Source: a virus
Direction: 5' to 3' (one strand)
Virus record (IMG/VR): IMGVR_UViG_3300040960_001677
Coordinates: 1 to 55,106 of that record
Length of the DNA stretch: 55,106 nucleotides
Part shown: positions 3-40,191 of the stretch, piece after piece
Position numbering within the stretch: the first letter of the stretch is position 1
Layout: every line of letters begins with the position of its first letter
Notes under the pieces: model-generated
What the model was told of the DNA's origin: nothing
The model's database searches: none
The model's input: only the letters and a program-made list of their open reading frames with translations
Translations under genes and position numbers: made by a program

Positions 3-269
3 AAAAATTTAAGATTGTTGCACGAAGATATTATTGGTTCTAAATCTACCAATGCTAGATATAACTTTGCAAAGAATATTTTATGGTTAGAGGATTTAAG
101 TACAGAATCTTTATCTTTAACATTTGAGTGTGGTGTTAGTGTATCGAATACTACAACAAAAAGTAGATTAAATTATGAGTCTTATTTTTCAACGAAAGAT
201 TTAGATTTTATGAAAAAACAATTTAATACGTACAAAGAAAATGAATTTATATATTATGGATATAAATGA
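3..269 (+). CDS. C-terminal end of a gene cut by the left edge; possibly sulfotransferase-like
   Basis: The frame is open to the left edge of the window, so the first in-frame TTG or ATG need not be the true start and only the last ~88 residues are visible. The tail has the general shape of a sulfotransferase C-terminus: a tryptophan-leucine-glutamate segment, a basic stretch, a tyrosine-rich YESYF segment, then a helix ending in YYGYK. That resemblance is weak and is an inference from pattern only. The gene converges on the nitroreductase gene from the other strand and the two coding ends overlap by about 16 bases, leaving no room for an ordinary terminator between them. Confidence 0.55.
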   Translation, partial: KNLRLLHEDIIGSKSTNARYNFAKNILWLEDLSTESLSLTFECGVSVSNTTTKSRLNYESYFSTKDLDFMKKQFNTYKENEFIYYGYK

Positions 270-1009
270 TTATTGAACCAAACTTTAAGTGATTTATCAA
301 ATGTAGGATGTTTCCAGTATTGTTCATCTGGACCATTTCTATAACGCTCTGGTACATCTTTGTTTTTTACTGTTGCGTGATAACTTCTATCTAATCTTTC
401 GTTTGGATATCCAACACCTACTATAATTCTAGGCTCTGTTTCAGATTGTATAATCGTTTGTAAATGTTTATCTGCTGTAGTCTTGTTTATATTTTGTTCA
501 AATGCACTACAATATCCTGTTTTATAACCTAGTAATGCCGCTGCCATTGTTAATTGTCCTGAAGAAATACCTATTGAAAATGATTTTTGTTCAAATAAAG
601 TTTTTTTTGCAATTGGACTTGCTTCTTTTCTAGCACCTAATATGTGTGTACCACCTCTTAAATTTGCAGTATCATCACACCAAACAAATACAGCATTAGC
701 ATATATTTGAGAATTGGTAACTGTATATTCTTCTTTTGTTTTAAATGAACCATCTTTATCGTCAAATACTTCATCAATATTATCTTCACTAAACATAGCG
801 TATAGTTTAGTTGCTTGATGTATTTTTTCTATAATTGTAGGATCAGTATAAACTCTTAAATTAAAATGAGTTTCATTTTGTTTAGATGGTCCATTTGAAG
901 CTGCATAGATTAATGTTTCTATATCTTCTTGTGGTATTGTTTTTGTTAGATTGTAATTTCTTTGAGCTCTTTGTGTAGTGTTAATAGCATTTTTTATTTG
1001 TTCGTGCAT
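254..1009 (-). CDS. Nitroreductase-family flavoprotein
   Basis: The 251-residue product has the layout of the nitroreductase fold. A basic N-terminal segment (RAQRNYNL) is followed by an AASNGPSKQN segment like the family's FMN-binding 'PSSxNxQPW' region. A central helical part contains GISSGQLTMAAALLGYKTGY, matching the family's conserved glycine-rich helix, and near the end is a PRIIVGVGYPN strand. Family members bind FMN and perform two-electron reductions with NAD(P)H; the substrate here cannot be read. It is the last gene of a five-gene minus-strand operon, 2 bases after a PP-loop ATPase and downstream of radical SAM genes. A flavin reductase could supply electrons to those enzymes or finish their product; this is inference. 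A second nitroreductase-like gene lies in the same kind of context at 31811-32497. Confidence 0.85.
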   Translation of the reverse strand: MHEQIKNAINTTQRAQRNYNLTKTIPQEDIETLIYAASNGPSKQNETHFNLRVYTDPTIIEKIHQATKLYAMFSEDNIDEVFDDKDGSFKTKEEYTVTNSQIYANAVFVWCDDTANLRGGTHILGARKEASPIAKKTLFEQKSFSIGISSGQLTMAAALLGYKTGYCSAFEQNINKTTADKHLQTIIQSETEPRIIVGVGYPNERLDRSYHATVKNKDVPERYRNGPDEQYWKHPTFDKSLKVWFNNHLYP

Positions 1010-1011
1010 AA

Positions 1012-1857
1012 TTAACTTCTTGGTAAATCAAATGCCCAAGCTTTCTCATAACACCAAAAACACTGCCAACACCATTCAGTAAAGTTATTTGTTTGATTTG
1101 CACCACCAACACAACTACGTGTAACAGGATATAACTCTTCCATTAAACCTTCTTGTTTAAATATATCAGCAACAAACTTCTTATCAACATTTACAAAAGG
1201 TTGATATACGTTATAGGTTAATTCAGGTTTGTTAGGATTGTCACGTCTTAACTCTCCTTGTACTCTTTTAATTTCTTTATCTGTAAAATTAAAATTAGGA
1301 TGTGCTTTTTTCATATAATCAGCAAATTTCATTCTTACTTCTATAGGAGGATTAGCTGTCATACCGTCTAATCTTATACAACCTGGCCATTGTTTCATAA
1401 ATTTTTCGTTACCTTCATCTAACTGATTAATCTTTGACATTTGAGTTAGTGTACAAGTTTTATAACGTTTATCATTTTCAATCATATGCTGTGCTTTTGG
1501 ATATGTTGCTTCATCTAAATCATCATACTTATCAATAAAGATGTCATTTAGTTTTGCTTTAGGAAACTTCTTTTGTATAAACTTAACTATTTGTTCAGCA
1601 GCCAAAGCATCCCATTTACAACGTACATCCTGAAACGTTAAAGGATAAACTTCTATATTAGGAAAATGTTTTGCAGTTAAATATAATGCAGACGCAGAGT
1701 CGCAACCACCTGATAAAGAAACAACAATTACTTTTGGCAATCCATTTTCATCAAGGTCTAATCTTTCTTCACATATTTGTCTATATGGTGACTTCTTAAT
1801 TAATTCTGGTATATCTATAAAAAATGGTTTAGTAATATTATTATATGTAATGTTCAT
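1012..1857 (-). CDS. QueC-like PP-loop ATPase (7-cyano-7-deazaguanine synthase superfamily)
   Basis: The product has a P-type PP-loop, SGGCDSA, at residues 49-55, which binds ATP and adenylates a substrate in the N-type ATP pyrophosphatase family. Its C-terminus carries four cysteines in the order C249, C263, C266, C269 (C-x13-C-x2-C-x2-C) after a TRS sequence and before KAWAF. This closely resembles the zinc knuckle of QueC, though the first spacing is longer. The start at 1857 is chosen because it gives an ATGA overlap with the radical SAM gene upstream and sits behind a good AGGGGA ribosome site; a start at 1887 would add ten residues. No QueD, QueE or FolE gene is visible, so preQ0 synthesis is not supported by context. 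A related activation of another carboxylate or amide is equally possible. Confidence 0.8.
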   Translation of the reverse strand: MNITYNNITKPFFIDIPELIKKSPYRQICEERLDLDENGLPKVIVVSLSGGCDSASALYLTAKHFPNIEVYPLTFQDVRCKWDALAAEQIVKFIQKKFPKAKLNDIFIDKYDDLDEATYPKAQHMIENDKRYKTCTLTQMSKINQLDEGNEKFMKQWPGCIRLDGMTANPPIEVRMKFADYMKKAHPNFNFTDKEIKRVQGELRRDNPNKPELTYNVYQPFVNVDKKFVADIFKQEGLMEELYPVTRSCVGGANQTNNFTEWCWQCFWCYEKAWAFDLPRS

Positions 1858-2612
1858 TTCAAATCCCCTTCTCTTACTTTTCTCCAATGTTTTAATTCTG
1901 GTGTTACATTAAAGTATTCTTCACCCTTTACTTTTTTAGCTCTGTGTTTATCACTAGGCACAGCAAACTCCTCATATGCCTTTTGAACATTTTTTCTTAA
2001 ATTTCTACTTTTAGGATCAAAACCTCTATTTGTTTTAATTAGTAATAATGTTATGCCTTCTTTATATGCAATCTCTTTTGCTTTTTCAATTTCATGTTCA
2101 TTGTAACCAAATATTATATATTGCCAAACTATTGGATGACCTGCTTGTACTCCCATTTTCATAGTTTCCCACACCTGTTTAAAGTTAGAACCAATACGAT
2201 ACAATTCCGATTTTTCATCTAAACCATCTACTCCAAAATACCAACAGTTTTCTCCTAGGCCGTAACTATATGCTTTTTCCCACCACTTCTCATTCATTTC
2301 AGCTGTGTTAGTACCATTAGTAGCAATTCTTAAACCTTTACCTAAACCATTCATCATTTCTAAAAATGTTAGAAATTCAGGATGGTAGATTGGATCTGAT
2401 ATTTGACCACAAAAGGTTATTTGATTTTCATAATAGTTTAGTACTTTTCTAAATTCTTTTTGATTAATGTCAAACGATCTTTTAATTCTAGGAAGGCCTT
2501 CTACTTTTTGTCTTAAACATTGTGGGCAACGTAATATACATCTATGAGATAAATCCATATTAGGTGATGAAAAACGCTGATTGCGAATATAGAGGTCTGT
2601 TAGTTCACTCAT
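1854..2612 (-). CDS. Radical SAM protein, partner of a separate half-SPASM protein
   Basis: The radical SAM cluster motif C25-x3-C29-x2-C32 is present (HRCILRCPQCLRQK), so the product should bind a [4Fe-4S] cluster and cleave S-adenosylmethionine. At 252 residues it is about a core radical SAM barrel without room for a C-terminal SPASM domain. The gene just upstream encodes a separate cysteine-rich protein that could supply one. Downstream motifs ITFCGQISDP, a DGLDEKSELYRI segment and WQYIIFGYNEHE recur almost unchanged in the radical SAM proteins at 36568-37224 and 37549-38268, so the three form one family. It overlaps both neighbours by 4 bases. The reaction is unknown. Confidence 0.87.
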   Translation of the reverse strand: MSELTDLYIRNQRFSSPNMDLSHRCILRCPQCLRQKVEGLPRIKRSFDINQKEFRKVLNYYENQITFCGQISDPIYHPEFLTFLEMMNGLGKGLRIATNGTNTAEMNEKWWEKAYSYGLGENCWYFGVDGLDEKSELYRIGSNFKQVWETMKMGVQAGHPIVWQYIIFGYNEHEIEKAKEIAYKEGITLLLIKTNRGFDPKSRNLRKNVQKAYEEFAVPSDKHRAKKVKGEEYFNVTPELKHWRKVREGDLK

Positions 2613-2956
2613 ATTTTATAATTATCTTTTTCTAAATTACCACACTTGTATTGGCATTGTTTCAAAGCACAACTAGGATTATTTATTAGTGTATCAAAAA
2701 AGTGTTCCCACTCTTTAGAGCCATAAATGTCTTCTAACTTTTCATTATTCTTTAATGCAAGGTGTTCATTTTTTAAATGAAACTTCTCCTCTACACCGTG
2801 ATCATTTTTAGGATCATCTAACCAACAACAAGGTAACATAAAACCATCTGATGTATAGGCTGCAGGTTTATGATAACTTTTTGGTTCATAAGTTAAACAA
2901 CGAGGTTTAATTCTTATGTCTTTAGGATCCATATCTTTCATATTATATTTACTCAT
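2609..2956 (-). CDS. Standalone half-SPASM (iron-sulfur) protein paired with radical SAM
   Basis: This 115-residue protein has the cysteine spacing of the auxiliary-cluster part of SPASM/twitch radical SAM enzymes but no radical SAM core. C20 is followed by G38-x4-C43-C44-W, and then C96-x4-C101-x3-C105. In classical SPASM proteins this domain follows the barrel in one chain; here it is a separate gene placed before its barrel gene, with a 4-base overlap that should couple their translation. The same split arrangement occurs twice more at 36204-37224 and 37221-38268. Its role as an electron-relay subunit for the 1854-2612 protein is inference. Confidence 0.75.
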   Translation of the reverse strand: MSKYNMKDMDPKDIRIKPRCLTYEPKSYHKPAAYTSDGFMLPCCWLDDPKNDHGVEEKFHLKNEHLALKNNEKLEDIYGSKEWEHFFDTLINNPSCALKQCQYKCGNLEKDNYKI

Positions 2957-2962
2957 ATTCTA

Positions 2963-4522
2963 TTATAACATATTCATCTCTGCTTCGTCAAGCGCTTCTC
3001 TTACTTTTTTATCCCAATTAGGAAACAGATTTGCTTGTAGATTGTGATCTCTATGTTTTTCTGGTTCATAATACTTTTCTAATTCTGGGAATACATCAAA
3101 TAACTTATGATCCCATTTTGTGCCTTCGTAAAACTTATCTGACTTTAACATATAGTCAAATAAGTTTTGTATATCAAAATCAGGATCAACAGGTCGTTCT
3201 AGTGCTGCTACAATATCAGGCCATTTTTTATACTTTGGTATTAATTCTTTTTTAAGTTCTTCAGGCAAGTTATTGGGTCTAAAGTGTTCAGGTTTATCAA
3301 TCATTGCCCAATTCAATTGATCAATTACTGGATTGTCTTTTACCCAATCTATAATTTCATAAAATCTTAATACACTTAAATTTGTAACAAGACCATTAAA
3401 GTCAACTACAACATTAGGAAATTCTCGGCACTTATTAATATTTTCAACAACTTCATTCCAATCTGTTCTTCTTCTCATATATTCAATAGTTCTACCAATA
3501 CCATCTACTGAAGCAACCATAGATACGTTTTTGAAATGAGGAATATATGTAAATATATTATGTCGACCTTTTTTAGTTTGTGTTAAGTTAGTTTGATATT
3601 TTAAATAGATATGTTTTGCATGGCCACTTTCAATAATTTTTTCTAATAATTCATAATGTTTTTTCATCACTAGTGGTTCTCCGCCAATGATTTTTATACT
3701 TCGTACATAAGGGGCTAATTCAATTACCTGCTCATTTATACCTTTTGTTTTATCTCTCATAACAAGTCTAATATATTCATCTCTTTGTTTACTAGGCTTA
3801 CCATAAACCTTTTCATTCCATACGCCAGCATTAGCAACTTTTTGTCTTGTTGTTGAGTTAGCATGCATACACATAAAACAATCTAAATTACATTCTGAGC
3901 CAAACACCTTTAATTGTATTTCTAATATTCTTTCGTCAAAGGCATATTGACCACTTGCTTTATACAGTTCAACATTTCTTTGAATATTATCCCAAAACTC
4001 TTTATCGTTGGTGTGAATTTTTAAGCAGTTTGTTCTTCTACTTCTTCCATACTTTTCTTCATCACTTCTACATCTTCGGCATATCTCATTAACTGCTTTA
4101 TGATCTGAATTGGGGTCTAACATCTCTTTACGAATACTATTCATATATTCACTATCAACCATCCATTCTTTCAATGTAGTGTTTTCTATTGTGTGTTTTG
4201 TTGATTCTTTACCAAAACAACAAGCACAATACTTACCGTTAATTTCATTATATACTTGTGTAAATGGTATTGTACAAAACCAAATGTCTTTATCTTTTGC
4301 TTGTTGTAAAATAGATTTGTCTTCAGATGGTTGTCCCAGCATTGTTTTACCAGCTTTTCTTTTTGTTTCATCCGATAGATTATTCCATTTCCACCATTCT
4401 TCAGTATTTACATTTCCTGGTGTTGAGCGATCACCTGGACCGCCTTTTGTAAGCATATCTTCGATTTGCTTGTCGTGCATATCATCAATATCTTTCACCA
4501 ACTTCTCATTCATATCAGTCAT
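2963..4522 (-). CDS. Radical SAM protein with N-terminal half-SPASM (twitch-like) region
   Basis: This is the first gene of the minus-strand operon (519 residues). After a helical start carrying LTKGGPGD, a cysteine-rich half-SPASM region is visible: C83, G96-x4-C101-C102 and C148-x2-C151. It is followed by a conserved KYGRSRR and then the radical SAM core with C211-x3-C215-x2-C218 (CNLDCFMC) and an IIGGEPLV strand. The auxiliary region therefore precedes the barrel, the reverse of classical SPASM enzymes. The whole chain is paralogous to the first ~450 residues of the 957-residue fusion at 28931-31804. No Shine-Dalgarno lies before the ATG; a CATAAATA octamer sits six bases upstream, and a sigma70-like promoter lies further out. 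Substrate unknown. Confidence 0.87.
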   Translation of the reverse strand: MTDMNEKLVKDIDDMHDKQIEDMLTKGGPGDRSTPGNVNTEEWWKWNNLSDETKRKAGKTMLGQPSEDKSILQQAKDKDIWFCTIPFTQVYNEINGKYCACCFGKESTKHTIENTTLKEWMVDSEYMNSIRKEMLDPNSDHKAVNEICRRCRSDEEKYGRSRRTNCLKIHTNDKEFWDNIQRNVELYKASGQYAFDERILEIQLKVFGSECNLDCFMCMHANSTTRQKVANAGVWNEKVYGKPSKQRDEYIRLVMRDKTKGINEQVIELAPYVRSIKIIGGEPLVMKKHYELLEKIIESGHAKHIYLKYQTNLTQTKKGRHNIFTYIPHFKNVSMVASVDGIGRTIEYMRRRTDWNEVVENINKCREFPNVVVDFNGLVTNLSVLRFYEIIDWVKDNPVIDQLNWAMIDKPEHFRPNNLPEELKKELIPKYKKWPDIVAALERPVDPDFDIQNLFDYMLKSDKFYEGTKWDHKLFDVFPELEKYYEPEKHRDHNLQANLFPNWDKKVREALDEAEMNML

Positions 4523-5040: not shown

Positions 5041-6177
5041 TTATTTTAATTGTAGATAAATTAAACTATGATAGTCGTAATTTCTTTCAACAGAATGAGC
5101 AGTAATAATTCTGTTATTATCAAAATCAATAACTACTTGTTGACCCCAAGCACCATCCATCATTAAAATAGGTCTGTCTTCTAAACCAATAGCATCCCAT
5201 AGAAACTGACCGCCATAAGTTTGTGCTGCTCTATGATTACCTGTAGATGTACTATACGCACCACCATCACCTATATCAACTCTATTTTCATACATTGTTT
5301 TTAAATACTTTCCAACGCAAGTATCATTCTTCCAATGATTCATAATCATGTTAGCAATTCTTACATAATCGTATCTGTCAGCATAAAAAGAATATCTACC
5401 ATACTCACCAGATTTTCTGTTACCTTTATCAGCATTTAAAGTCTTATGAAAATAAACTCTTTTTGCAACTTTAGCGTCTTCTACAAATATCTTATGTAAT
5501 AACTTGTTCCAGTCATCACCAGTTTTGTAAATAACATAGTTCATAATAACATTAGTTGTCATGGCACTATAATTATATTTAAGTTCATTATCGTAACCTC
5601 TTGCTGGTTTAGTATCTTTAAAATATCTTTTCATAGCAGTTTTGATGGGAATAGTATTAATACTTTTACCATCACTATTCATTCTACTGTCCCATCCACC
5701 AAACAAACTACCAAGATAATATTGATCACCTGCTTGCATGTTAAGTAAATTTATTAACTTTTGATTTTCATATAAAGTTCCTTCAACAGTTGGGTAATCT
5801 ATTCTATCAAAAACTGTATGATTGATGTAACCACCACACAAAGCATAACCTGTAACAACAGATACTAAACTTTTGCCTACAGAATGTGAAGGATAAGGTC
5901 CATGATATTTACTTTTTCTATTTTGATCAACTAAAATTTTGTTGTTTTCAAATAAGATGTAAGAAACTAAACCAGTTTTTTTATCTTTAAGTTGTTCTTC
6001 AGCTAATTTAGATAAATCGTTAGTTTGTAAATCAAACTCAAAATCATAGGTTGCATTTTCTTTACCACCTATTTTATATTTGTGGTGACAATTAAAACAA
6101 TATTTCTCACCGGCAAATGTTACGCCGATCGTTAAAATTAAATTTATTATAATAACAATAATCCAAAGTCTAAACAT
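5041..6177 (-). CDS. Exported serine hydrolase, class C beta-lactamase/penicillin-binding fold
   Basis: The 378-residue product starts with a signal peptide or membrane anchor (hydrophobic residues ~4-21, then FAG). The catalytic SxxK is visible as S99-V-G-K102 in a PSHSVGKS context typical of class C beta-lactamase-like hydrolases. The second motif is a variant YSA at 203-205 where family members usually have YxN or YSS, and YGGQFLWDAIG near the C-terminus fits the fold. Just after the signal region lies C27-x2-C30-H31, a CxxCH sequence that could bind haem c or a metal. Family members act on peptidoglycan peptides, esters or amides in the periplasm; the substrate here is unknown. It is the last gene of the minus-strand small-gene operon and abuts the 91-residue gene. 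Confidence 0.82.
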   Translation of the reverse strand: MFRLWIIVIIINLILTIGVTFAGEKYCFNCHHKYKIGGKENATYDFEFDLQTNDLSKLAEEQLKDKKTGLVSYILFENNKILVDQNRKSKYHGPYPSHSVGKSLVSVVTGYALCGGYINHTVFDRIDYPTVEGTLYENQKLINLLNMQAGDQYYLGSLFGGWDSRMNSDGKSINTIPIKTAMKRYFKDTKPARGYDNELKYNYSAMTTNVIMNYVIYKTGDDWNKLLHKIFVEDAKVAKRVYFHKTLNADKGNRKSGEYGRYSFYADRYDYVRIANMIMNHWKNDTCVGKYLKTMYENRVDIGDGGAYSTSTGNHRAAQTYGGQFLWDAIGLEDRPILMMDGAWGQQVVIDFDNNRIITAHSVERNYDYHSLIYLQLK

Positions 6178-25741: not shown

Positions 25742-26225
25742 AGAATATTTAAAAGATAATTTTTTAACTGCATATTTTATAGATAGTGAAAGACAAAATA
25801 TAGAAGTGCAAACAACAACTGAAGATAAGAAAAAAGTTTTTACTACTATTATTCCATATGATGAAAATGGAGAGCAGTTTAAAGCTCTGTCAAAATTTAT
25901 GAACCTTGATCAGTTGCACGAATCGACTTATCAAAAACATAAAAATGAAAGAAAATTATTTGAAGAATCTGTGATAAGAATTGCACAAAAAACTGGTCTT
26001 ATTATGGATAGTGAAAAAATTGATACTAAATTTTATCCAACTTTAGTAACTTCTTTGTTTGAGGATCAGGATGACGCCGATCACGTTTTTGCTTTAAAAC
26101 TTGCTTTATTTGAATTAGACTCTATAAAAGATTCTACAAATGAGGATGCTAAAAAAGAATTAAGAAAAGCTAAAAATAAATTAGATATTCTTTCAGCGGC
26201 TATTCAATGTATGGGTAAGAAATAA
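25731..26225 (+). CDS. Phage protein of unknown function
   Basis: The 164-residue product has a short beta-rich first part (TAYFIDSERQNIEVQTT) and a mostly helical remainder ending in KAKNKLDILSAAIQCMGKK. It overlaps the end of the epimerase gene by 11 bases and has a good AAGGAG ribosome site. Its end overlaps the convergent glycosyltransferase gene by 22 bases. No family was recognised. Being charged and helical without signal or membrane segments, it is probably cytoplasmic or a minor virion component. Confidence 0.72.
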   Translation: MITEEYLKDNFLTAYFIDSERQNIEVQTTTEDKKKVFTTIIPYDENGEQFKALSKFMNLDQLHESTYQKHKNERKLFEESVIRIAQKTGLIMDSEKIDTKFYPTLVTSLFEDQDDADHVFALKLALFELDSIKDSTNEDAKKELRKAKNKLDILSAAIQCMGKK

Positions 26226-26776
26226 TTAGAATACCAACCTGTCCATCCTTTTTCTTGTAGATGGTGCATTTGACCTAACGTACATACACTAAATTGAGAT
26301 GGTTGTTGGTAGATATAATCTTTAATTGAAGGACATACTTTATCGTATGTTTCATATTTAATATTTTTATAATACCATTCATCACTACCTCTAGTATATG
26401 TACTAACAAAAAATTCATCATTTTTCTTAAATTTATCCCATATGTAGGATACATCACCTGTCCAAGATACTATTGATGAGTTTAAAGGTGTATGAGCTGG
26501 TTCTCTCCACCACGTATCATCTAATAATGTAAAGTTTTTTCTTATAAGATTAGGAAGTTTATCATAGATCACTAAATCTAAATCAAAATATAGATTTTCA
26601 TCATCTCTAAATCTGTCATACATTTGAAGCTTATTGAACCAATTGCCATATAGATCATTTTCTATAACTTCAAAACTATCATACTTTAGACCAGAGTATT
26701 CATCTATCATATGTTTTAAGTTGTCAACGTGCCATTGAGTAAACTTTTCACCAAATCTACAACAAATAATTCTCAT
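26204..26776 (-). CDS. GT-A-fold glycosyltransferase-like protein (last gene of the island operon)
   Basis: The 190-residue product shows a DxD-type motif in NLYFDLDLVIYDKLP (D65 and D67), preceded by a helical KLQMYDRF segment. This is the arrangement of GT-A enzymes that hold a nucleotide-sugar through a metal ion. Later aromatic-rich segments (WWREPAHTPLNSSIVSW, DEWYYKN) fit acceptor-site loops. It is short for a glycosyltransferase, so it could be a minimal or regulatory form. It is the last of sixteen coupled genes and overlaps the gene before it by 20 bases. Confidence 0.72.
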   Translation of the reverse strand: MRIICCRFGEKFTQWHVDNLKHMIDEYSGLKYDSFEVIENDLYGNWFNKLQMYDRFRDDENLYFDLDLVIYDKLPNLIRKNFTLLDDTWWREPAHTPLNSSIVSWTGDVSYIWDKFKKNDEFFVSTYTRGSDEWYYKNIKYETYDKVCPSIKDYIYQQPSQFSVCTLGQMHHLQEKGWTGWYSNYFLPIH

Positions 26777-27476
26777 TTATTTTTCTTCCTACACCTGTAA
26801 AGTGTATAACTTTTAGTTTGTCATTTACTTGTTTATCTAATATCATATAATCAGTATTAAACTTTTGCATATACATTTTATTTAGCTTTAAATTTTCTTT
26901 ATAATCATCTGTGTATTTAGCAATCCATTCACTAGGTGTTTTAGTTAGTTTTGCCTTATGTTCTAATATCTTCCACTTGACATAATTTTGTTCACCATAA
27001 TACTTCTTATGTACGGTGCCTTCCTTATAGAAATGTAATTGCCAGTATTCAGGATTGAGTGCAAAATCATCCCATACAAATTTTAAACTACCTGATTTAA
27101 ACTTATAAAAACCACCATTGATACCTAGTTTATTTTCCCACCATTGGCCATATGTAACTAACTCGTTTTCTTTCACTGGATAATTAAGTAAATCATCTAT
27201 ATTATTAACAATAACTTGATCTATATCCATAATAATAATATCATCGCCTGGATTTTGATATGCAAATTGAGGGCTGAAAAATTTTAGTTTATGCCAATGT
27301 TTTACTATATTACTATTGTGATTGTAAGGTAAAACTAAATCTGCTTTGACATCTGTATCACTTAAACATACAAATTGAAAATCTACCGTTGAGTTTTTTC
27401 TTAAGCTATCGTGCAATCTAGTAATGTAATCTGGTGAATAGAAACCGTCAAAATATACTGTACATATTTTAAGCAT
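26757..27476 (-). CDS. GT-A-fold glycosyltransferase-like protein
   Basis: The 239-residue product begins LKICTVYFDGFYSPDYITRL and has a clear DxD in DDIIIMDIDQVIVNNID (D84 and D86), preceded by HWHKLKFFSPQFA, as in GT8-like transferases. GINGGFYKFKSGS fits the substrate loop of the same fold. The C-terminal part has KVIHFTGVGRK, resembling the HFxGxxKPW-type histidine motif near the end of GT8 enzymes. It overlaps both neighbours on the same strand. Donor and acceptor are unknown. Confidence 0.78.
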   Translation of the reverse strand: MLKICTVYFDGFYSPDYITRLHDSLRKNSTVDFQFVCLSDTDVKADLVLPYNHNSNIVKHWHKLKFFSPQFAYQNPGDDIIIMDIDQVIVNNIDDLLNYPVKENELVTYGQWWENKLGINGGFYKFKSGSLKFVWDDFALNPEYWQLHFYKEGTVHKKYYGEQNYVKWKILEHKAKLTKTPSEWIAKYTDDYKENLKLNKMYMQKFNTDYMILDKQVNDKLKVIHFTGVGRKINENYLL

Positions 27477-28332
27477 TTAATTTTTTCCAAACAATATCAA
27501 ATCTTTTATTAATTGTATGACACATTATAACTTCATCTGGTACCCAAAGTTGTTTAGAGAAAAAGAAATGCCATTTAGAATCTAACCATAATACAGGTAT
27601 ATTATTCTCCTTTAATTTAACTGAAAATAATGTTTCATTATCCCATCCAAAGTAGTGTGTTATTTTTTTCGGCCACATATCGTGTCCATTTTTTAAACTA
27701 CTCATTAAAGATAGATTGTTATCGAAATCATCAAAGTATTTTAATTTAACAATATGTTCTTTATTTGCCCCAATTATGCCTGTGTTTATGACATTATTAC
27801 GAGGACTTAAACCTTTTTCAAATAACATAGCTTGAGCGTTATAATATTTTGCTGTTGGACTTCTTATTGTTGTTGATGTTTCTGTAACCGATTCAATTTT
27901 TGATACCGCATCCGAATTATCTAATACTGCTATACCTTTTGTTAAATCCCAATGTTCAAAGAAATTTACAAATTTCATAGGAACAACGTCAAAATCTAAA
28001 TAGAGTATTTCGTCATAGTTTTTTGCTAACTCATACATCAAATGTATTTTATAAAAATTAATTACATTATAGGTTGTTAAGTATGGATACTTTGTTTGTA
28101 ATTTTTTTTGATAATTAATATAGTTTGAATCAAACTCAAACATTTTAAATTCAATATTATTAGCGAAAGCGTAAGCTTGTTTGCACGCCACTAAATCATC
28201 ATAATTATCTTTAAATTGACTTTTTGTTACATAGTTTATAGGAGGATCACCTTCTTTTAAAACATTTTTATCAAATATATCAAGCTCTTCTTTTGGAATG
28301 TCAATATACAAACTATAAATTACTCTTTTCAT
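27469..28332 (-). CDS. GT-A-fold glycosyltransferase-like protein
   Basis: The 287-residue product has the DxD motif in YDEILYLDFDVVPMKFVNF (D113 and D115), preceded by NVINFYKIHLMYELAKN, a helix typical before the DxD of capsular and LPS glycosyltransferases. NVINTGIIGANKEHI resembles the acceptor loop of this class, and MCHTINKRFD near the end provides a late histidine. It overlaps the methyltransferase gene by 4 bases and the next transferase gene by 8. It is the third DxD protein in a row, suggesting a multi-sugar product. Confidence 0.78.
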   Translation of the reverse strand: MKRVIYSLYIDIPKEELDIFDKNVLKEGDPPINYVTKSQFKDNYDDLVACKQAYAFANNIEFKMFEFDSNYINYQKKLQTKYPYLTTYNVINFYKIHLMYELAKNYDEILYLDFDVVPMKFVNFFEHWDLTKGIAVLDNSDAVSKIESVTETSTTIRSPTAKYYNAQAMLFEKGLSPRNNVINTGIIGANKEHIVKLKYFDDFDNNLSLMSSLKNGHDMWPKKITHYFGWDNETLFSVKLKENNIPVLWLDSKWHFFFSKQLWVPDEVIMCHTINKRFDIVWKKLNA

Positions 28333-28934
28333 TTAAACTTTCCTATCAGTAAAAATCTAATACCACGCTCATCTTTAATTTGATCTTCTATCATAACTTC
28401 AGCATTATCAGGTAATTGTTTTTTAAATTCTTCTATATTCTTAGCGCAATTAATATGACCTTCTATATCAAACATATTATTTGAGGTAAATGCAAAGTAT
28501 GGTTTGTTCTTTCTACATATCCATTCCCACATAGGCCATTCTTTCATAGGTGCCATATGCTCGCAAGATGTGTTTATAAAAAGATTAGCACTTCTATATT
28601 CATTTAGTTTTAAATCATCAAATATATCCTGACATCTAAATTGCACATTTTTATAATCATAGAACAATCTATTTGTAGCAATATTAATAACTTCTTTATC
28701 TTTATCAATAAGTGTAATTTTCTTTATATGTTTATAAGCAGGTACAAATATACTGCCATACCAACTACCCATAATTACAATTTCATCTATTTTAGCATTT
28801 AGCATTTCAACATATTCTATTATTGCTCCTTTTGCTCTAAATTGATTTACACTATATGAGTCTAGTATATCAGGATTATGCCTGCCTTCTTGTATTATTC
28901 TTTTAAATAAATCTAAATCTATTTTATCAATCAT
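28329..28934 (-). CDS. SAM-dependent methyltransferase, class I-like
   Basis: The 201-residue product shows a Rossmann-type SAM site: IDEIVIMGSWYGSIFVP (residues ~50-65) as motif I, then KKITLIDKDKEVINIA with an acidic end of strand two (D77/D79), and VQFRCQDIFDDL as the following acidic strand. ANLFINTSCEHMAPMKEWP fits motif IV. Its place between the carbamoyltransferase fusion and the glycosyltransferases suggests it methylates a sugar or the group being built. It overlaps each neighbour by 4 bases. Confidence 0.78.
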   Translation of the reverse strand: MIDKIDLDLFKRIIQEGRHNPDILDSYSVNQFRAKGAIIEYVEMLNAKIDEIVIMGSWYGSIFVPAYKHIKKITLIDKDKEVINIATNRLFYDYKNVQFRCQDIFDDLKLNEYRSANLFINTSCEHMAPMKEWPMWEWICRKNKPYFAFTSNNMFDIEGHINCAKNIEEFKKQLPDNAEVMIEDQIKDERGIRFLLIGKFK

Positions 28935-31804
28935 TTTCTTATTATATAATCATTAATAACTAACAAATCTAATGCTGTTTTTTTAAATGTTCTTATTGCT
29001 TGTTCAGGTGTTTCTACTATAGGTTCTTGGCAATTAAAACTTGTATTTAATAACATAGGTATACCTGTTATTTTGTAAAATTCATTTATGATATTGTAAA
29101 ACTTTTCATTAAATTTTTTATTAACTGTTTGTATTCTGGCTGTACCATCAACGTGTGTAATACCTGGCACTTTATCTGATTTAACTTTACATATTCTACT
29201 CATATATGGGCTAGGAAATTTTGTATCAAAATATTGTTTGTAATGTTCTTCTAATACAGCTGGTGCAAATGGTCTAAAGTCTTCTCTCATTTTAATTGTA
29301 CTATTAATAATATCTTTAATATCTGGATTACGTGGATCTGCAAGTATTGATCTATTACCTAATGCACGATTGCCACTTTCTGATTTGCCTTGAAACCATC
29401 CTACTATTTTACCATCAGCGATGGCCTGTGCTACTTCTTTGTAATCAACTTTTTCATTACCAATATAGTCATATTCTTTACCAGCAAATGTTTTTGATTT
29501 ATGTATATTATTGTTTAGTGTATAGTTAGCGTGTTGATATGTGCCTATTGACTGTCCTTCATCACCTACAGCTGGTGGTACAAATACGTTTTCATAATGT
29601 TTAGTAAATTCTTCATTCATATATCCGTTATAAGCAACACCACCTGCAATACAAAGATTATTGCAAGATTTTAATGGATAAACGTGTTCTTTTATTTTAT
29701 CTATAGTAAATTTTTGTAGGGTATATGCAAGGTCTTCGATACTATTTAATCTAATTTCTTTAAAGTGTTCTTGTTTTTTTTCGGTTATCTCACCTGCAAG
29801 TATTGTTTCAAATACATTATAATAATACTCACTATATTTTCCATATCCTACTTTACCCATAAGTTTACTTGCACCAAGTGTACCAAAGCCTGTTAAGTTT
29901 GACATATGATTCCATAGCCAACCAATAGGCAATTTATCAGATAAATCAATTAAGTTTTTATTTTTATCAAAAAACACACATCTATATTTTGATCCTATAC
30001 CATCAATTGCTAGTATATCTGATTGTTCAAAACCTGAATTAAGAAAGGCATATGCGGCGTGTGATTGATGGTGATCTATAAAGTAAAGATCATCTTTTAA
30101 ATAATAGTCCCATAGTTTCTTCGGGTCATAATCAAATATATCTTGTGGTAACTTATCTTTGCATTTTCTTATGCCGCCAAACGTATATGTAAATGCTAGA
30201 ATGCCATTTGTACCATCTCTTTTATTTGTATCCCAATATTCTTCAATAAACTCATCATTTAATCTGTAATCGCTAGAATTTAATATATCTGATTGATGAG
30301 CATATGCTTCAGCGTGATAAGGTAAATTATGTTTAAATCTAGTAAATCTTTCTCTTTGATTATGAAACACACCATCATAGGTATTGTGGTCGTGTAAATT
30401 AAGTGCTACGGAATATATTTTTTTCACTCTTTTTTCTCCATTATATTTTTTCAGTTCAGGATAGACATCAAATAAGCTTGCTTCCCATTTAGTGCCTTCA
30501 TAATATTTATCTATTTTTAAAAGATAGTCAATTGTATCCAAATAAGACAGGCCACCATTATCTTCTTTTAAAATATTTTGAATATCAGGAAAGTTTTCGT
30601 ACTTGTCTATAAGTACTTTCTTTAAATCATCTGGCAATACATTTGCACATAACTTTGCTGGTCCTCTTATATTAGACCAGTTAATTTGTTTAAATAGTTT
30701 TTTGTTTTCATCAAACCAGTTTATAAGTTCATAAAATCTTAATACACTTAAAAAAGATATTGTGCCATTTACATTTATTTGAACATTAGGATATTGCTTT
30801 ACCGTTTTTATATTTTTAACTATATCTTCCCAATTTGATCTACGCCTAATATATTCATCTGTTTTACCTATACCATCAAGTGATACCGTAAATTCAAATA
30901 ACTGAAAGTGTCTTATATAATCTGTAATCCTATATTTACCTTGTCCTAAAACAGACATATTAGTTTGAAATTTTAGTTTCATATGAGGAGCATGGCCTGT
31001 CTTTATAATTGCGTCAAGTAATTGATAAAATTGTTTCATAACTAGTGGTTCACCACCAATCAATTTAAGATTATAAATGTATGGTGCAAATTCAACTATC
31101 TGACCTATAATATCTTTTATCTGGCCTTTAAAAGGATTAAGTTTAACATCATTACCGTGTTTAAGAGTCCATACATTCATAACCGTTTGACCTTCTAATT
31201 CTTTTGAGTTCAATGTTGTAGTTCTTGTAGAAGAGTCGTAAGTGTGGCACATATAACAATCTAAATTACATTGATTACCAAATGCTTTTATTTGCACTTC
31301 AAAAATTCTATCTTTTATGTGACCTGTTTTTGTTTCTTTATAACGATTAACTGCCTTTCTTATACCTGCCCATATACCATCATCATTAGATTGTATCTTT
31401 AATGAGGCCTGTCGTCTGGATCTGCCATATTGTTTTTCTTGTTTAATACACGATACACACGATTTTTTTGTTAACTTTAAATCAGAGCCTGGTGTTGTCA
31501 TTTCTTTTCGTAATTGATTTAGTTTAGGATCATTTTCAAACCAATCTCTTATAGATGTATCTCTTATATTAGGACCAAATTCAGATGATCTAGCCCACGA
31601 GCATGGTGCATAATTACCTTGTATATCTGTAAATAATAATTGAAAGGGTGCACCACAGAAAAATATATCTTGGTCTTTAATACTTTTATCTAATTCATCT
31701 AATATACAATTTTTAAACCATTCAGATGTATCTAATTTTCCATTGCCCAAATACTGATCACCTGGTCCTCCTTTAGTCAGATGTTTAGGTAACTTTTTAC
31801 TCAT
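28931..31804 (-). CDS. Fusion: half-SPASM/radical SAM protein with C-terminal NodU/TobZ-type carbamoyltransferase
   Basis: This 957-residue chain joins two enzymes. Residues 1-~450 are paralogous to the 519-residue protein at 2963-4522: LTKGGPGD, C50, G63-x4-C68, C116-x2-C119, QYGRSRR, the radical SAM cluster C179-x3-C183-x2-C186 and KLIGGEPLV. Residues ~462-957 are a carbamoyltransferase. Visible landmarks are H578-H579-x2-H582 (HHQSHAA), IDGIGS at 600-605, AGGVAYN at 720-726, AVGDEGQSIG and GNRALGNRSILADPR at 811-825. Such enzymes use carbamoyl phosphate and ATP to carbamoylate a hydroxyl group, usually on a sugar. The join falls just after the point where the paralogue ends. The usual GPRALG is GNRALG here. 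I do not know a described enzyme with this architecture. Confidence 0.88.
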   Translation of the reverse strand: MSKKLPKHLTKGGPGDQYLGNGKLDTSEWFKNCILDELDKSIKDQDIFFCGAPFQLLFTDIQGNYAPCSWARSSEFGPNIRDTSIRDWFENDPKLNQLRKEMTTPGSDLKLTKKSCVSCIKQEKQYGRSRRQASLKIQSNDDGIWAGIRKAVNRYKETKTGHIKDRIFEVQIKAFGNQCNLDCYMCHTYDSSTRTTTLNSKELEGQTVMNVWTLKHGNDVKLNPFKGQIKDIIGQIVEFAPYIYNLKLIGGEPLVMKQFYQLLDAIIKTGHAPHMKLKFQTNMSVLGQGKYRITDYIRHFQLFEFTVSLDGIGKTDEYIRRRSNWEDIVKNIKTVKQYPNVQINVNGTISFLSVLRFYELINWFDENKKLFKQINWSNIRGPAKLCANVLPDDLKKVLIDKYENFPDIQNILKEDNGGLSYLDTIDYLLKIDKYYEGTKWEASLFDVYPELKKYNGEKRVKKIYSVALNLHDHNTYDGVFHNQRERFTRFKHNLPYHAEAYAHQSDILNSSDYRLNDEFIEEYWDTNKRDGTNGILAFTYTFGGIRKCKDKLPQDIFDYDPKKLWDYYLKDDLYFIDHHQSHAAYAFLNSGFEQSDILAIDGIGSKYRCVFFDKNKNLIDLSDKLPIGWLWNHMSNLTGFGTLGASKLMGKVGYGKYSEYYYNVFETILAGEITEKKQEHFKEIRLNSIEDLAYTLQKFTIDKIKEHVYPLKSCNNLCIAGGVAYNGYMNEEFTKHYENVFVPPAVGDEGQSIGTYQHANYTLNNNIHKSKTFAGKEYDYIGNEKVDYKEVAQAIADGKIVGWFQGKSESGNRALGNRSILADPRNPDIKDIINSTIKMREDFRPFAPAVLEEHYKQYFDTKFPSPYMSRICKVKSDKVPGITHVDGTARIQTVNKKFNEKFYNIINEFYKITGIPMLLNTSFNCQEPIVETPEQAIRTFKKTALDLLVINDYIIRK

Positions 31805-31810
31805 AAGTTT

Positions 31811-32497
31811 TTACTCGTCATCCTCAAATGAAAAGATGTCCTCAAAAGGTGGACAAGTATCTTTTTTTAAACTTTCTGGTTTCATATTTTGCCACTTATA
31901 CAATTCTGCTTTACCTATTGTTTGTATTAGATATGGTGTGTACTTAATAAACTTAAAATGATTTTCTTTTGTTCTCCATTTTTGTAAGTTTTTTGGAAAA
32001 CAAATATTATATGAAGTATCCCAACCTTTATCTAAAACAGCTCCTGTGATCGTTTTGGCAATCATTCCAACTTCTATAGCCCAACTTTCTCTTCCATGTG
32101 GTATAAACCATTCTTCACCCATTTCCCATCTAGTGCCTGTTTTTGCACATTGCTCTCTAGCAAACTGATTACCTGGAGCAACTCTTGGTGTGAATATTAA
32201 CGTCCAAGGTGCTGTTGCTATATGAAATAGATTAGGGTTTGCTTGATATGTAAATCCTTTTTTCTGTACATCACCATCAAAACTTATTTTATTGCCTTCA
32301 CATAGGTCATATAAAATTTTACTTCTTTCTGCATTTGGTCCTAACACATACGCTTTGTAAGGAAAGGCTTTTTGTTTTGATGTTGCTAATGGATATCCTA
32401 TTCTCAATATCTCCTCTATTTGTAATCTAGTAGGAATAATATCTTTTTTATAATGAACAACGTGGGCTCTTTTTTTTAATGAATCAGTTATACTCAT
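31811..32497 (-). CDS. Nitroreductase-like flavoprotein
   Basis: The 228-residue product starts with KKRAHVVHYKKDIIP and IEEILRIGYPLATSKQKA, laid out like the FMN-binding start of nitroreductases (basic segment, then SKQ). KAYVLGPNAER follows, and a later hydrophobic-alternating AIEVGMIAKTITGAVLDKG helix matches the central helix of the fold. The C-terminal half diverges from standard members. It parallels the nitroreductase at 254-1009, which also accompanies radical SAM genes. Substrate unknown; an alternative reading is a flavin-free relative of the fold. Confidence 0.68.
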   Translation of the reverse strand: MSITDSLKKRAHVVHYKKDIIPTRLQIEEILRIGYPLATSKQKAFPYKAYVLGPNAERSKILYDLCEGNKISFDGDVQKKGFTYQANPNLFHIATAPWTLIFTPRVAPGNQFAREQCAKTGTRWEMGEEWFIPHGRESWAIEVGMIAKTITGAVLDKGWDTSYNICFPKNLQKWRTKENHFKFIKYTPYLIQTIGKAELYKWQNMKPESLKKDTCPPFEDIFSFEDDE

Positions 32498-33342
32498 AAT
32501 ACCCTCGCATATTTTGATACTGGAAAATGACCTTTAGGTTCAACCCATTCCATACAATTTTTACAATAATTTTCATACTTAAATAATCTAAAATTCATCA
32601 TCTTGTCTATATTCTCCTGTGTTATGTCAAATGTTTTTGAATGTATAATATTATTAGCAAATTTCTTACTACAATGTACAATCTTTCTTGTTTCAAAGTT
32701 GATAACAGGCACCATAGGAAAAGCTGCACACATCTTACGATCTATTTCTGCAGCCTGAGTATGTACTGCCAATACATCATCTTTATTAGGTGTTCTACCA
32801 TTAAATGATTTCCACATTGTATTTTTGTGATCTAACTGTTTCATTTCTTCTGGAAAGTTATCTTTGTATTTAAAATAATTAGGTGTCTTTACGCATAGAT
32901 TGTAATTATTGTATTCATTTGGTTGTATGAAACCGTAAGGTGGTAGTAAATCTAAACTACCAAGTTTTTTAATTTCGTTTTCATAAAAATCTAATATATT
33001 ATGTTCAATATAAAGTATATCAGAATCTTTTAGTATATGTGGATATCTTTTACGTACAAAGGAGTTTGATAGTACTGAACATACGTGATTAGGTCTACTT
33101 TTAACTTCAGCAATAACATCATCTAAATTTTTAATTAGGCCTGGCTCACCACCTAGAAGACAAACACGTATCTTATAATTTTTTAAATAGTCTAGTGTTT
33201 GTTTTAGGAAATCCATATCAACTGTCAAGTTTCTCATTTCTAAAGTATAGCTTGTACAGTAATGGCAATCTTTATTACAAGACATAGACATAAAAAAATC
33301 TATGGCTAAATAGTTTTCTTGTATTTCTTTTAATGTTTTCAT
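32494..33342 (-). CDS. Radical SAM protein with C-terminal cysteine region
   Basis: The 282-residue product has C22-x3-C26-x2-C29 (SCNKDCHYC) and a LLGGEPGL strand with GGEP at 64-67, the SAM-binding element. The C-terminal third has further cysteines (a C in KMCAAFP, C in KIVHCSKKF, and YCKNC near the end) that could hold an auxiliary cluster, making it SPASM-like in a single chain. It differs in sequence from the split-pair family nearby. It overlaps both neighbours by 4 bases. Reaction unknown. Confidence 0.86.
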   Translation of the reverse strand: MKTLKEIQENYLAIDFFMSMSCNKDCHYCTSYTLEMRNLTVDMDFLKQTLDYLKNYKIRVCLLGGEPGLIKNLDDVIAEVKSRPNHVCSVLSNSFVRKRYPHILKDSDILYIEHNILDFYENEIKKLGSLDLLPPYGFIQPNEYNNYNLCVKTPNYFKYKDNFPEEMKQLDHKNTMWKSFNGRTPNKDDVLAVHTQAAEIDRKMCAAFPMVPVINFETRKIVHCSKKFANNIIHSKTFDITQENIDKMMNFRLFKYENYCKNCMEWVEPKGHFPVSKYARVL

Positions 33343-33656
33343 ATTGTAAACTTATCAAAAAAGAATTTATTTAATGCTACTAATAGTTTTTGTTTGGCTT
33401 GATCTTTGAAATTTAATTCTTCAAATATATAATCTGGCCTTTCGTAGGCCTTTTCTATTATATAATGATAGATGTCCTCAATGTCATCTGCTATCAAAGA
33501 CTTATCAAGCACTATATCATTACCAAAAATATATTTCATTTTTTTAATTAACTCTAAAAGTCTAAAAGGTATTTTATCTGTTATGTCAATCATATTATTG
33601 TTACTATCAAAATAACAGAAAGTTTTAAAAGATGGACTAATTATTATTTCATTCAT
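33339..33656 (-). CDS. Small protein of unknown function in the island operon
   Basis: The 105-residue product begins with short strands, contains CYFDSNNNMIDITDKIP at residues ~14-30, and continues with helices. That segment resembles residues ~609-626 of the carbamoyltransferase part of the neighbouring fusion (FFDKNKNLIDLSDKLP), which may be chance or a shared element. No catalytic motif is seen. It is coupled by 4-base overlaps to the aminotransferase upstream and the radical SAM gene downstream. Confidence 0.65.
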   Translation of the reverse strand: MNEIIISPSFKTFCYFDSNNNMIDITDKIPFRLLELIKKMKYIFGNDIVLDKSLIADDIEDIYHYIIEKAYERPDYIFEELNFKDQAKQKLLVALNKFFFDKFTI

Positions 33657-34705
33657 ACTGTTGCCATAATTATATTACAAGTATTATCTATTTCATCATT
33701 TGTTAAATATGGATGAATAGGTAATGTTAGTATTGTATCACATATTTGTTGACTATTCAAGCAGCTATCTTTTCTATGTATAATAGAATTATACATTACA
33801 TTTTCCGATATAGGATTAGGATAGTGTACAGCTGCACCTAGTCTTTTCTTTAAGGTTTCTCTTATTTCTTTATTTTTAACTCTAATAACATATTTGTGAT
33901 AACAATGATTAACACCTTCATCAATTTTTTGAAGGGTAACTATATCTTTTAAATTATTATCATATCTTTTAGCTATTCTAAATCTCTTATCTTGCCATTC
34001 GTGCATTTTGTCTATTCTAAAATTAATAAATTCAGCATTGATTGCTAACATTTTAGAGTTAAATCCTAATACTTCATTATTACCGTGTCTTCTTAATTTT
34101 CTAATAAAGTCTGCTTGAGTTTTGTTGTCTAATAAAACAGCACCACCACCTGCAATCCCAGCAACAGGCTTATTTGCGTTAAAACTTAATGTTGCAATGT
34201 CACCATATGTTCCTGCATATTGACCATTTCTGTTTGCACCAAATGATTGACAAGCATCCTCTATTAGTTTTATATTTTTTTCTTCACAAAAGTTTTGTAT
34301 TTCTGTCATATCAGATATGTTGCCAAACAGGTGTGGGTACACTATTGCCTTTACTTTATCAGAATACATACGTTTAATACTATCAATTGACATATGATAA
34401 GTTTCTAAATCAACATCACAAAATACAGGTGTTGCACCTACCATCGTTATACAAGAGGCTGTAGATATCCAAGAAAAGTTTGTAGTCATTATCTCATCGC
34501 CAGGTCCTAGATTAAGTGCCATTAGAGCAAAACGTAGAGCGTCTGTGCCACTAGCACACGTTACAGCATATTTTCTATTAATAATTTTTAAAATATGTTT
34601 TTCTAAAAATTCAACGTTTCTTTCGTTTTCTTTTTGCATAACATTATCAAAAAGCTTTAAGTATTCATCTTTGTTTGCTATATAATCTTTATACCAACTA
34701 TCCAT
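33653..34705 (-). CDS. DegT/DnrJ/EryC1/StrS-type PLP aminotransferase of sugar biosynthesis
   Basis: The 350-residue product is a full-length member of the sugar aminotransferase family. Visible landmarks are CASGTDALRFALMAL, GPGDEIMTTNFSWISTA, the PLP-pyridine aspartate D150 in LIEDACQSFGA, and the catalytic lysine K179 in LSFNANKPVAGIAGGGAV. C-terminal HCYHKYVIRVKN and VHYPNPI are also typical. The family transfers an amino group from glutamate to a keto-sugar nucleotide, or dehydrates in some cases. With the epimerase at 25013 it argues for an unusual amino sugar as product or intermediate. It overlaps both neighbours. Confidence 0.9.
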   Translation of the reverse strand: MDSWYKDYIANKDEYLKLFDNVMQKENERNVEFLEKHILKIINRKYAVTCASGTDALRFALMALNLGPGDEIMTTNFSWISTASCITMVGATPVFCDVDLETYHMSIDSIKRMYSDKVKAIVYPHLFGNISDMTEIQNFCEEKNIKLIEDACQSFGANRNGQYAGTYGDIATLSFNANKPVAGIAGGGAVLLDNKTQADFIRKLRRHGNNEVLGFNSKMLAINAEFINFRIDKMHEWQDKRFRIAKRYDNNLKDIVTLQKIDEGVNHCYHKYVIRVKNKEIRETLKKRLGAAVHYPNPISENVMYNSIIHRKDSCLNSQQICDTILTLPIHPYLTNDEIDNTCNIIMATV

Positions 34706-35480
34706 TATCTTTACCTATTATGTTATAATCTTTTAATAACTTATTTATTTTATTACTAATAGCTATATGTCCTAGTTTATTTGGGTGATTGTCAATTACG
34801 GATACTCTTTGTGGTGATTTTTTATTTTCCCATAGATCAAGTTTATCTTTAAATCTCCATCCTCCAAGTTTTTGTACAGGAGGCCATCCCATAAATTTAG
34901 ATGTATCTAATTTGTTTTCATAGTCCATTATAGATTTTAATATAATTGATTCGTCTTTTGTTTTATTTCCTGGATATTTACTTTGAGTATTAGGATCCGC
35001 TCCAAAATGAACATCATTTTGACTTGGCTTAATACCTTCTAAATAATGTTCAAAAAGTTCTATCATTTGAAATTGAACATAAGGTATATTATATCTCTCA
35101 CATAGTATTTGAAAATCTAAATAATGTCCTAAAGACTTTTCAACCCACCACGGTAGGTTACCATGTGTATCAATTCTCAAATTTTTCCAATTTGACCTCA
35201 TAATAGTATCTTCTTTATAATCCTTTCTTGGAGCTTGTGACCAAGCAGCAATAACTAAACCAATTTGACTTTTATCGTCTATCTTAACTATTTCATCTCG
35301 TAAAGTCGTATAGATAAATTCATTGCCTTGTCCCGACCTAGCCATGTTGATAACTTTCATACCTAATTTTTCTGATAATAATTCAGGCCATTTTTTGTAA
35401 CTAAAATCCATATCTGGATGAGATATAGAATCAAAGTCATCTGTTGTATTACTATCGCCACTAACTATCAGATACTTCAT
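34698..35480 (-). CDS. SGNH/GDSL-type hydrolase, first of a tandem pair in coordinates
   Basis: From the ATG at 35480 the product is 260 residues and starts MKYLIVSGDSNT, with the block I serine at S10. MARSGQGNEFIY fits block II, and DNHPNKLGHIA near the C-terminus supplies the block V aspartate-histidine pair. SGNH enzymes add or remove acyl or acetyl groups on sugars. An in-frame ATG at 35495 would add five residues; the later start is preferred since it aligns with the paralogue and has AAGAG upstream. The gene is a diverged duplicate of 35461-36207, which it overlaps. Confidence 0.78.
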   Translation of the reverse strand: MKYLIVSGDSNTTDDFDSISHPDMDFSYKKWPELLSEKLGMKVINMARSGQGNEFIYTTLRDEIVKIDDKSQIGLVIAAWSQAPRKDYKEDTIMRSNWKNLRIDTHGNLPWWVEKSLGHYLDFQILCERYNIPYVQFQMIELFEHYLEGIKPSQNDVHFGADPNTQSKYPGNKTKDESIILKSIMDYENKLDTSKFMGWPPVQKLGGWRFKDKLDLWENKKSPQRVSVIDNHPNKLGHIAISNKINKLLKDYNIIGKDNG

Positions 35481-36207
35481 TGAATGCTCTTTCATATATG
35501 AATTCAGCTATTTTTTGTTGTCCAGCTGCATTAGGATGCCTATCTAATTCTGATATTTTATGTTCTTCTTTTAACACACTAAACTCTAAACTAAATCCTC
35601 CTAATTCTTCATCAGTTGGCCAATTAAGGTGTTTATCATTAAATTTGTATTTTGTGCTTTTTAGGGTTTCAAGTGTTTCATTTTTTAATTTTTTATATAA
35701 AGGACCTAAAACTATATTATTAGTATTTAATTTTAAATCTTTACTGTTGTTTTTTTCATATTGTTGTTTGTTTATTTCCCACAAATGTCCTCTATATAAA
35801 CTTATCATTTGAAAATGTATGTAAGGAAGTTTTTCTTGTTTTAAAAGATTTTGAAAGGCATATTGATACCTAATGCTTCTATTTATCCAATAAATTAAAT
35901 CACCTTTCACATCTTGTCTGTCATTTGTCCACTTATTCTTTACTTGAAAACAACGTCTAGGTGCTGTAGACCAAGCAGCTATAACTATACCAATTTCATC
36001 TTTAGGTGTGCTTTGTATATAATCTGATATAGATGAATAAATATACTCTTGTCCTGCACCACATTTACAAAGATTAACACACTCCATGTTTAGTTTTTCT
36101 GCCAACAGTTCTGGCCATTTAGGCCAATCACAATCCATTTCAGGATGAAATGATGAAATAAAGTTTTTATCTCCCCAACTACATCCACTAACTATTAATT
36201 TTTTCAT
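35461..36207 (-). CDS. SGNH-type hydrolase paralogue with GCSW in block I
   Basis: The 248-residue product starts MKKLIVSGCSWGDKNF; the serine at S10 takes the catalytic position although the usual GDS is GCS. CKCGAGQEYIYSSI is the block II region, IGIVIAAWSTAPRR corresponds to the same strand in the paralogue, and LDRHPNAAGQQKIAEFI carries the C-terminal D-x2-H. Both members share SFHPEMD/SHPDMD, WPKWPELLAEKL and IAAWS, so this is a tandem duplication. A sugar O-acetyl hydrolase or transferase role is inferred from the fold. Confidence 0.78.
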   Translation of the reverse strand: MKKLIVSGCSWGDKNFISSFHPEMDCDWPKWPELLAEKLNMECVNLCKCGAGQEYIYSSISDYIQSTPKDEIGIVIAAWSTAPRRCFQVKNKWTNDRQDVKGDLIYWINRSIRYQYAFQNLLKQEKLPYIHFQMISLYRGHLWEINKQQYEKNNSKDLKLNTNNIVLGPLYKKLKNETLETLKSTKYKFNDKHLNWPTDEELGGFSLEFSVLKEEHKISELDRHPNAAGQQKIAEFIYERAFNEVSDS

Positions 36208-39794: not shown

Positions 39795-39798
39795 ATAT

Positions 39799-39806
39799 TA
39801 TAAATA
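39799..39806 (+). promoter_or_regulatory. T4-type late promoter TATAAATA
   Basis: The exact octamer lies about 77 bases before the ATG at 39883. A CATAAATA at 39790-39797 abuts it upstream, and TATAAATT at 39856-39863 lies nearer the gene, so several start sites are possible. The ATG has an AAGGA ribosome site. Confidence 0.68.
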
Positions 39807-40185: not shown

Positions 40186-40191
40186 TATATT

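Follow-up and report, generated by a model that had tools for sequence, protein, structure and literature searches.

A QueC-fold PP-loop family encoded beside twitch radical SAM enzymes in marine phages lacks the preQ0-site motifs of QueC

QueC (Pfam PF06508; cluster 1 of PMC13329287) has a Rossmann PP-loop with an SGGxDS motif, a C-terminal lysine and a TxSC...CxxCxxC knuckle, and the essential residues of the E. coli enzyme lie in YxQxHxxE (Y35), VPxRN (R99) and YPDC (Y131, which binds the base), to which the zinc region adds Y189 (PMC13329287). The defence proteins Cap9 (type IV CBASS) and QatC (qatABCD) have retained the QueC fold in a changed pathway, and in QatC the Tyr/Asp residues of nucleobase recognition have been replaced as well (PMC13279940). 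The N-acetyl sugar amidotransferases (NASATs; WbpG, WbuX and LpNASAT; PF06508 cluster 5) are PP-loop enzymes with a zinc tetracysteine that act in surface-sugar biosynthesis, and amidation of LPS sugars by such enzymes has been described (NASAT/WbpG, PMC10607449). As for the phages, one report locates radical SAM cassettes to what it calls the host recognition cluster in pelagimyophages, the genome region considered here (PMC7029224), and another counts up to 12 radical SAM genes in T4-like marine genomes (PMC5332604). In marine viral surveys, queC is among the conserved auxiliary genes and has been taken as evidence of preQ0 (PMC9301287).

The window, the whole stretch of DNA that was analysed (55,106 bases), is a virus record from a T4-like marine phage of the SAR11 type, whose baseplate protein shares 59% identity with its counterpart in Pelagibacter phage Mosig EXVC030M and 54% with the one in HTVC008M. 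The cassette runs from 4522 to 254 on the minus strand as a tight operon, its reading frames overlapping or abutting, and the start of the QueC-like gene overlaps the stop of the radical SAM core gene (ATGA junction). In the order of transcription, the five genes are as follows.

2963-4522, minus strand: N-twitch radical SAM enzyme, 519 aa (NF033640, E = 1e-88)
2609-2956, minus strand: stand-alone twitch/auxiliary Fe-S domain, 115 aa (TIGR04317 positions 247-319)
1854-2612, minus strand: radical SAM core protein, 252 aa, with CxxxCxxC (PF04055, E = 4.9e-8)
1012-1857, minus strand: QueC-fold PP-loop protein, 281 aa (ATG at 1857; the stop ends at 1012)
254-1009, minus strand: flavoprotein of the nitroreductase family, 251 aa, with which the cassette ends (PF00881, E = 4.7e-7)

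Relatives of the 281-aa protein were collected from IMG/VR (in the widest scan, the best 80 of 214 confirmed matches were kept), and all retrieved loci were pooled into 54 non-redundant domains (< 90% identity), which with the window protein itself gave 55 aligned rows. The window protein has SGGCDS at residues 49-54 and the knuckle C249-x13-C263-x2-C266-x2-C269. S49, G51, D53, S54, K142, K226, T246, S248 and the four knuckle cysteines were 100% conserved in the 54 non-redundant members; thus, the combination of PP-loop and knuckle is not a chance pattern. The SGGxDS phosphate-binding loop was present in 54 of the 55 rows and CxxCxxC near the C-terminus in all of them, and the knuckle spacing was x13 in 50 of the 55 (x7-x17 among the canonical QueCs compared). 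In seven of eight family pairs dN/dS was 0.05-0.32, and in the eighth it was 0.49 on a dS of 0.02. The family was found solely in uncultivated viral contigs: no QueC-like relative was detected in cultured phages and plasmids by single-sequence tblastn, which could miss remote relatives, nor in GTDB genomes by two peptide-pattern scans with short patterns of limited reach. Some phages have two or three QueC-like paralogues per cluster (L073 8541-9347, L064 9234-10007, L060 2-646), and some paralogues are without the NPP of the T-x-NPP motif, a hint of several substrates.

A first-pass annotation, made from the sequence alone, had recognised a QueC relative by the PP-loop and the knuckle, and the reading frame, the motifs, PF06508, the fold and the profile-profile comparison agree with this. 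PF06508 matched the window protein over residues 44-92 (the P-loop) only, at 22.9 bits with a cut-off of 22 (E = 7e-5), and was matched at E ≤ 0.01 by 28 of 29 aligned relatives (best, 6.8e-8). The AlphaFold2 model had a pLDDT of 92.4; in a Foldseek search of the PDB, the highest target-normalised TM scores among the matches listed were those of QueC 3bl5 (0.59) and Cap9 9nto (0.57), the query-normalised score to 3bl5 being 0.44, a modest fold match, and the best match among viral models was a phage QueC. With hhalign, the family profile was aligned end to end with ten canonical QueCs (that of E. coli and nine encoded by phages or archaeal viruses) at 96% probability over 196-215 columns including the knuckle. 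The match to NadE was as strong, over 64-164 columns of the P-loop half, ending before the knuckle, and that to CysH reached 6-14% over 36-37 columns (two CysH sequences only). A PDB sequence search with the family gave only P-loop relatives.

A PAPS reductase-like placement, named beforehand as the result that would speak against a QueC relationship, was not shown, though the trees leave it some probability. In the first tree (MAFFT auto), the family grouped with CysH (98/92), whereas in the second, with a better alignment, it grouped weakly with QueC (84/65); under topology tests both CysH and NadE stayed acceptable as the sister group, and neither tree was decisive. In both, the marine family formed one group and canonical QueC another. 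The CysH profile match was low, as given above, none of the 29 aligned relatives matched Pfam PAPS_reduct at E ≤ 0.01, and PHROG 424 was weakly matched by seven of the 29. Since the predicted fold and the end-to-end profile alignment match QueC and the preQ0 motifs are absent (see below), the protein is assigned to the QueC superfamily but not to canonical QueC; its fold, as modelled, is well supported.

The family shares with QueC the PP-loop, an equivalent C-terminal lysine and the TxSC...CxxCxxC knuckle. Unlike QueC, it has D77, D83, K142 and a T-x-NPP motif with a knuckle spacing of mostly x13, and it lacks queD, queE-type and folE neighbours. A comparison of active-site residues with QueC had been proposed at the first pass: YxQxHxxE, VPxRN and YPDC were each found in 0 of the 55 rows, as against eight, ten and nine, respectively, of the ten canonical QueCs, and the first knuckle cysteine is followed by V, T, I or A in place of the tyrosine of QueC (Y189). 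The alignment gives good support for a lost preQ0 site. The absence of QueD and FolE noted earlier for the window was confirmed and extends to 14 related records; in these 15 records (up to 171 kb, possibly fragments; the controls worked), PTPS/QueD (PF01242), GTP cyclohydrolase/FolE (PF01227) and TGT/DpdA (PF01702) were all absent.

The radical SAM neighbour had been described as resembling MoaA/SPASM types and not QueE. The cassette radical SAM proteins are of the twitch type and gave no match to QueE models at E ≤ 1, but there are two such neighbours instead of one, and one of them is split. The 519-aa enzyme scored 298 bits against NF033640 (curated cut-off, 170), which makes it an N-twitch radical SAM protein; its auxiliary cysteines are C83, C101, C148 and C151 and its radical SAM cysteines C211, C215 and C218, and the four N-terminal cysteines and CxxxCxxC were invariant in 26 aligned sequences. 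The second enzyme is apparently divided into a core and an auxiliary-cluster domain, because TIGR04317 positions 9-182 match the 252-aa reading frame and positions 247-319 the adjacent 115-aa one; the 115-aa twitch protein is presumed to be the partner of the 252-aa core protein. In the PDB sequence search, the 519-aa enzyme had no match and the 252-aa protein one weak match to a 4Fe-4S protein. A PADLOC scan of the five cassette proteins gave weak QueC, viperin-like and other matches only; for QatB, the operon partner expected of a QatC-type ligase, Pfam has no model.

Among the 54 non-redundant members, 50 had a gene for a radical SAM or twitch protein in the same orientation and no more than 6 kb away; nitroreductase-type genes were neighbours of 35, DegT aminotransferase genes of 31 and carbamoyltransferase genes of 29. 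Eight members were fusion proteins (six with N-twitch radical SAM, one with the core type, and one with p105), a radical SAM fusion being encoded at L060 4901-7171, and DegT was present in all 11 QueC-positive records longer than 50 kb. Note that p105 is a small unknown domain that stands alone in the window (33339-33656, minus strand), is joined to DegT in L011/L012 and forms the fusion with the QueC-like protein in L064. A distance of 22 kb separates the cassette of the window from the DegT/glycosyltransferase cluster given below, inside which the QueC-like gene sits in other phages.

26204-39119, minus strand: second cluster, with radical SAM/twitch paralogues, DegT, carbamoyltransferase, methyltransferase, glycosyltransferase-like (GT8-like) and SGNH-like proteins
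28931-31804, minus strand: N-twitch radical SAM-carbamoyltransferase fusion, 957 aa (PF16861, 2e-67; PF02543, 7e-18; PF04055, 8e-11)
32494-33342, minus strand: radical SAM protein, 282 aa (PF04055, 7.9e-10)
33653-34705, minus strand: DegT/DnrJ/EryC1 sugar aminotransferase, 350 aa (PF01041, 3e-80)
36204-38268, minus strand: two pairs of twitch and radical SAM core proteins (36204-36578/36568-37224 and 37221-37562/37549-38268), paralogous to the cassette pair

The radical SAM half of the 957-aa protein was 41% identical to the 519-aa enzyme of the cassette (blastp, 7.5e-120). The cores of the two pairs matched the cassette core with 30-33% identity (blastp, 1.7e-34 and 3e-29), and the second-cluster twitch proteins matched the cassette twitch protein at 2.7e-9 and 4e-5.

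The cultured phage Mosig has a sister cluster without the QueC-like gene, bordered at one end by VrlC and baseplate genes and at the other by those for the tail fibre. The phage group, the abundance of radical SAM genes and the genome region are thus those of the cassettes reported for pelagimyophages and T4-like marine genomes (PMC7029224, PMC5332604), as far as the available parts of these reports go, and a QueC-fold partner is not mentioned in those parts; a literature search likewise found no description of such a partner of radical SAM cassettes. A PP-loop protein of HTVC008M annotated as NadE (L174 13424-14197), which adjoins a carbamoyltransferase in a different pelagiphage cluster and weakly matched the QueC-like profile (5e-5), was considered as a family member and rejected; because it has no cysteine knuckle, it was taken as a NadE relative.

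The first-pass annotation had offered two readings, a part of a phage 7-deazaguanine DNA modification route and a QueC-fold enzyme recruited to another pathway. The second is supported by the conserved cassette, the radical SAM fusions and the DegT/carbamoyltransferase/glycosyltransferase cluster. We somewhat favour a QueC-superfamily ATP-dependent ligase or amidating enzyme of the phage that would act on a radical SAM product in a phage surface-sugar pathway. The protein would be an active ligase and its product an amide or a similar group; we infer a sugar substrate because the neighbours are sugar-type enzymes, and given DegT, the carbamoyltransferase, the methyltransferase, the GT8-like protein and the radical SAM enzymes, the simplest substrate would be a sugar or cyclitol acid. 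In the proposed mechanism, the ATP-cleaving loop and a C-terminal four-cysteine putative metal knuckle would be kept and the 7-deazaguanine site replaced; a small molecule would most likely be activated with ATP at its carboxylate (or amide), releasing AMP and PPi, and the activated group would be joined to ammonia or an amine, as happens in the sugar amidotransferases and in QueC. The analogy with QueC and NASAT extends to the nitrogen nucleophile, which would be delivered by a PP-loop enzyme that has a metal knuckle but lacks a glutaminase domain. The likeness to NASAT has a limit in the cysteines, since CxxC(x)6CxC was found in 0 of the 55 rows and those of the family form a C-terminal QueC-type knuckle. 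The twitch radical SAM enzymes and the nitroreductase-type flavoprotein encoded alongside would probably produce the substrate or modify it further, and the pathway product may be an unusual amino sugar or cyclitol-like group placed by the cluster transferases on the virion or host surface. Only tentatively do we go further and suggest a phage-only QueC-fold family, fused or translationally coupled to twitch radical SAM enzymes, that builds an amidated (or nitrile/amidine) sugar or cyclitol surface group, a non-nucleobase branch with chemistry not previously described in viruses.

The substrate may also be a protein or peptide, because the structure model of the 519-aa N-twitch enzyme (pLDDT, 84) resembles, by Foldseek, the peptide modifiers CteB and SuiB, its top PDB matches, as well as the sugar-nucleoside enzyme BlsE. 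A ligase that, with the radical SAM enzymes, modifies a phage protein or peptide like Cap9/QatC or a RiPP-like system would also suit the rank of Cap9 9nto, second by target coverage among the matches listed, and the base-recognition pair lost in the family as in QatC. We nevertheless hold it unlikely: no precursor-peptide gene was recognised among the inspected reading frames of the cassette, the stable companions recognised for the family are sugar-type (DegT, carbamoyltransferase and GT8-like) and not CD-NTase or QatB, and Cap9 retains a YPDC-type motif that is absent in the phage family. Unlike Cap9 and QatC, the family stands in a phage biosynthetic neighbourhood, with no CD-NTase seen in the cassette, and has radical SAM fusions.

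A sulfur-transfer enzyme like NcsA, TtuA or LarE, with a [4Fe-4S] cluster or sulfur on its four cysteines and a thioamide or thiocarboxylate group in its product, appears rather improbable. Several other Fe-S enzymes are encoded in the genome, and NcsA and LarE were the first PDB matches by E-value; however, their target-normalised TM scores were 0.28-0.43, below those of QueC and Cap9, and the C-terminal SC-x13-CxxCxxC is the arrangement of the QueC knuckle, where the QueC profile alignment places the cysteines.

It is very unlikely that the cassette and the carbamoyltransferase cluster hypermodify phage DNA otherwise than with 7-deazaguanine, for example by carbamoylation or glycosylation of a base. 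5-Hydroxymethylcytosine can serve as a substrate for phage carbamoyltransferases, but that type co-occurs with thymidylate-synthase domains in modified contigs (PMC8670742), and the thymidylate-synthase domain PF00303 was found in one of the 15 records; moreover, the cluster adjoins tail-fibre genes and carries DegT and GT8-like enzymes.

A true QueC preQ0 synthase of a 7-deazaguanine DNA modification route, the remaining genes of which would lie beyond the window or come from the host, is scarcely credible. It was rejected because the three motifs were found in none of the 55 rows and FolE, QueD and TGT/DpdA were absent from the 15 records (up to 171 kb, possibly fragments); the replacement of Y189 and the lack of QueE matches also stand against it. 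In its favour are the PF06508 score just above the cut-off, the Zn-knuckle architecture and the radical SAM enzyme next door, QueE often being a neighbour of QueC.

Thus, a PF06508 match in a SAR11-type phage can be something other than a preQ0 synthase, and the genes counted as queC should therefore be examined for the YPDC/VPxRN signature. Should the surface-sugar reading be true, these phages encode several enzymes of a radical SAM pathway that makes a surface group, and one more use of the QueC fold joins those in QatC, Cap9, LarE and WbpG. With the seven radical SAM fusions, the enzyme pair is directly testable from single genes.

Two other regions of the window are recorded here. At 5041-6177 (minus strand), a 378-aa protein without a Pfam match has a signal-like start and an SxxK motif (SVGKS) as in beta-lactamase/D,D-peptidase-like serine hydrolases, and is conserved near gp25 in relatives. 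At 39177-43843 (plus strand) lies a run of small proteins, several of which resemble by eye Asp/Arg hydroxylase or Fe/2OG oxygenases, with a fatty-acid-desaturase-like protein among them (40192-40821, plus strand); genes annotated like those of this run lie near the sister cluster of Mosig.
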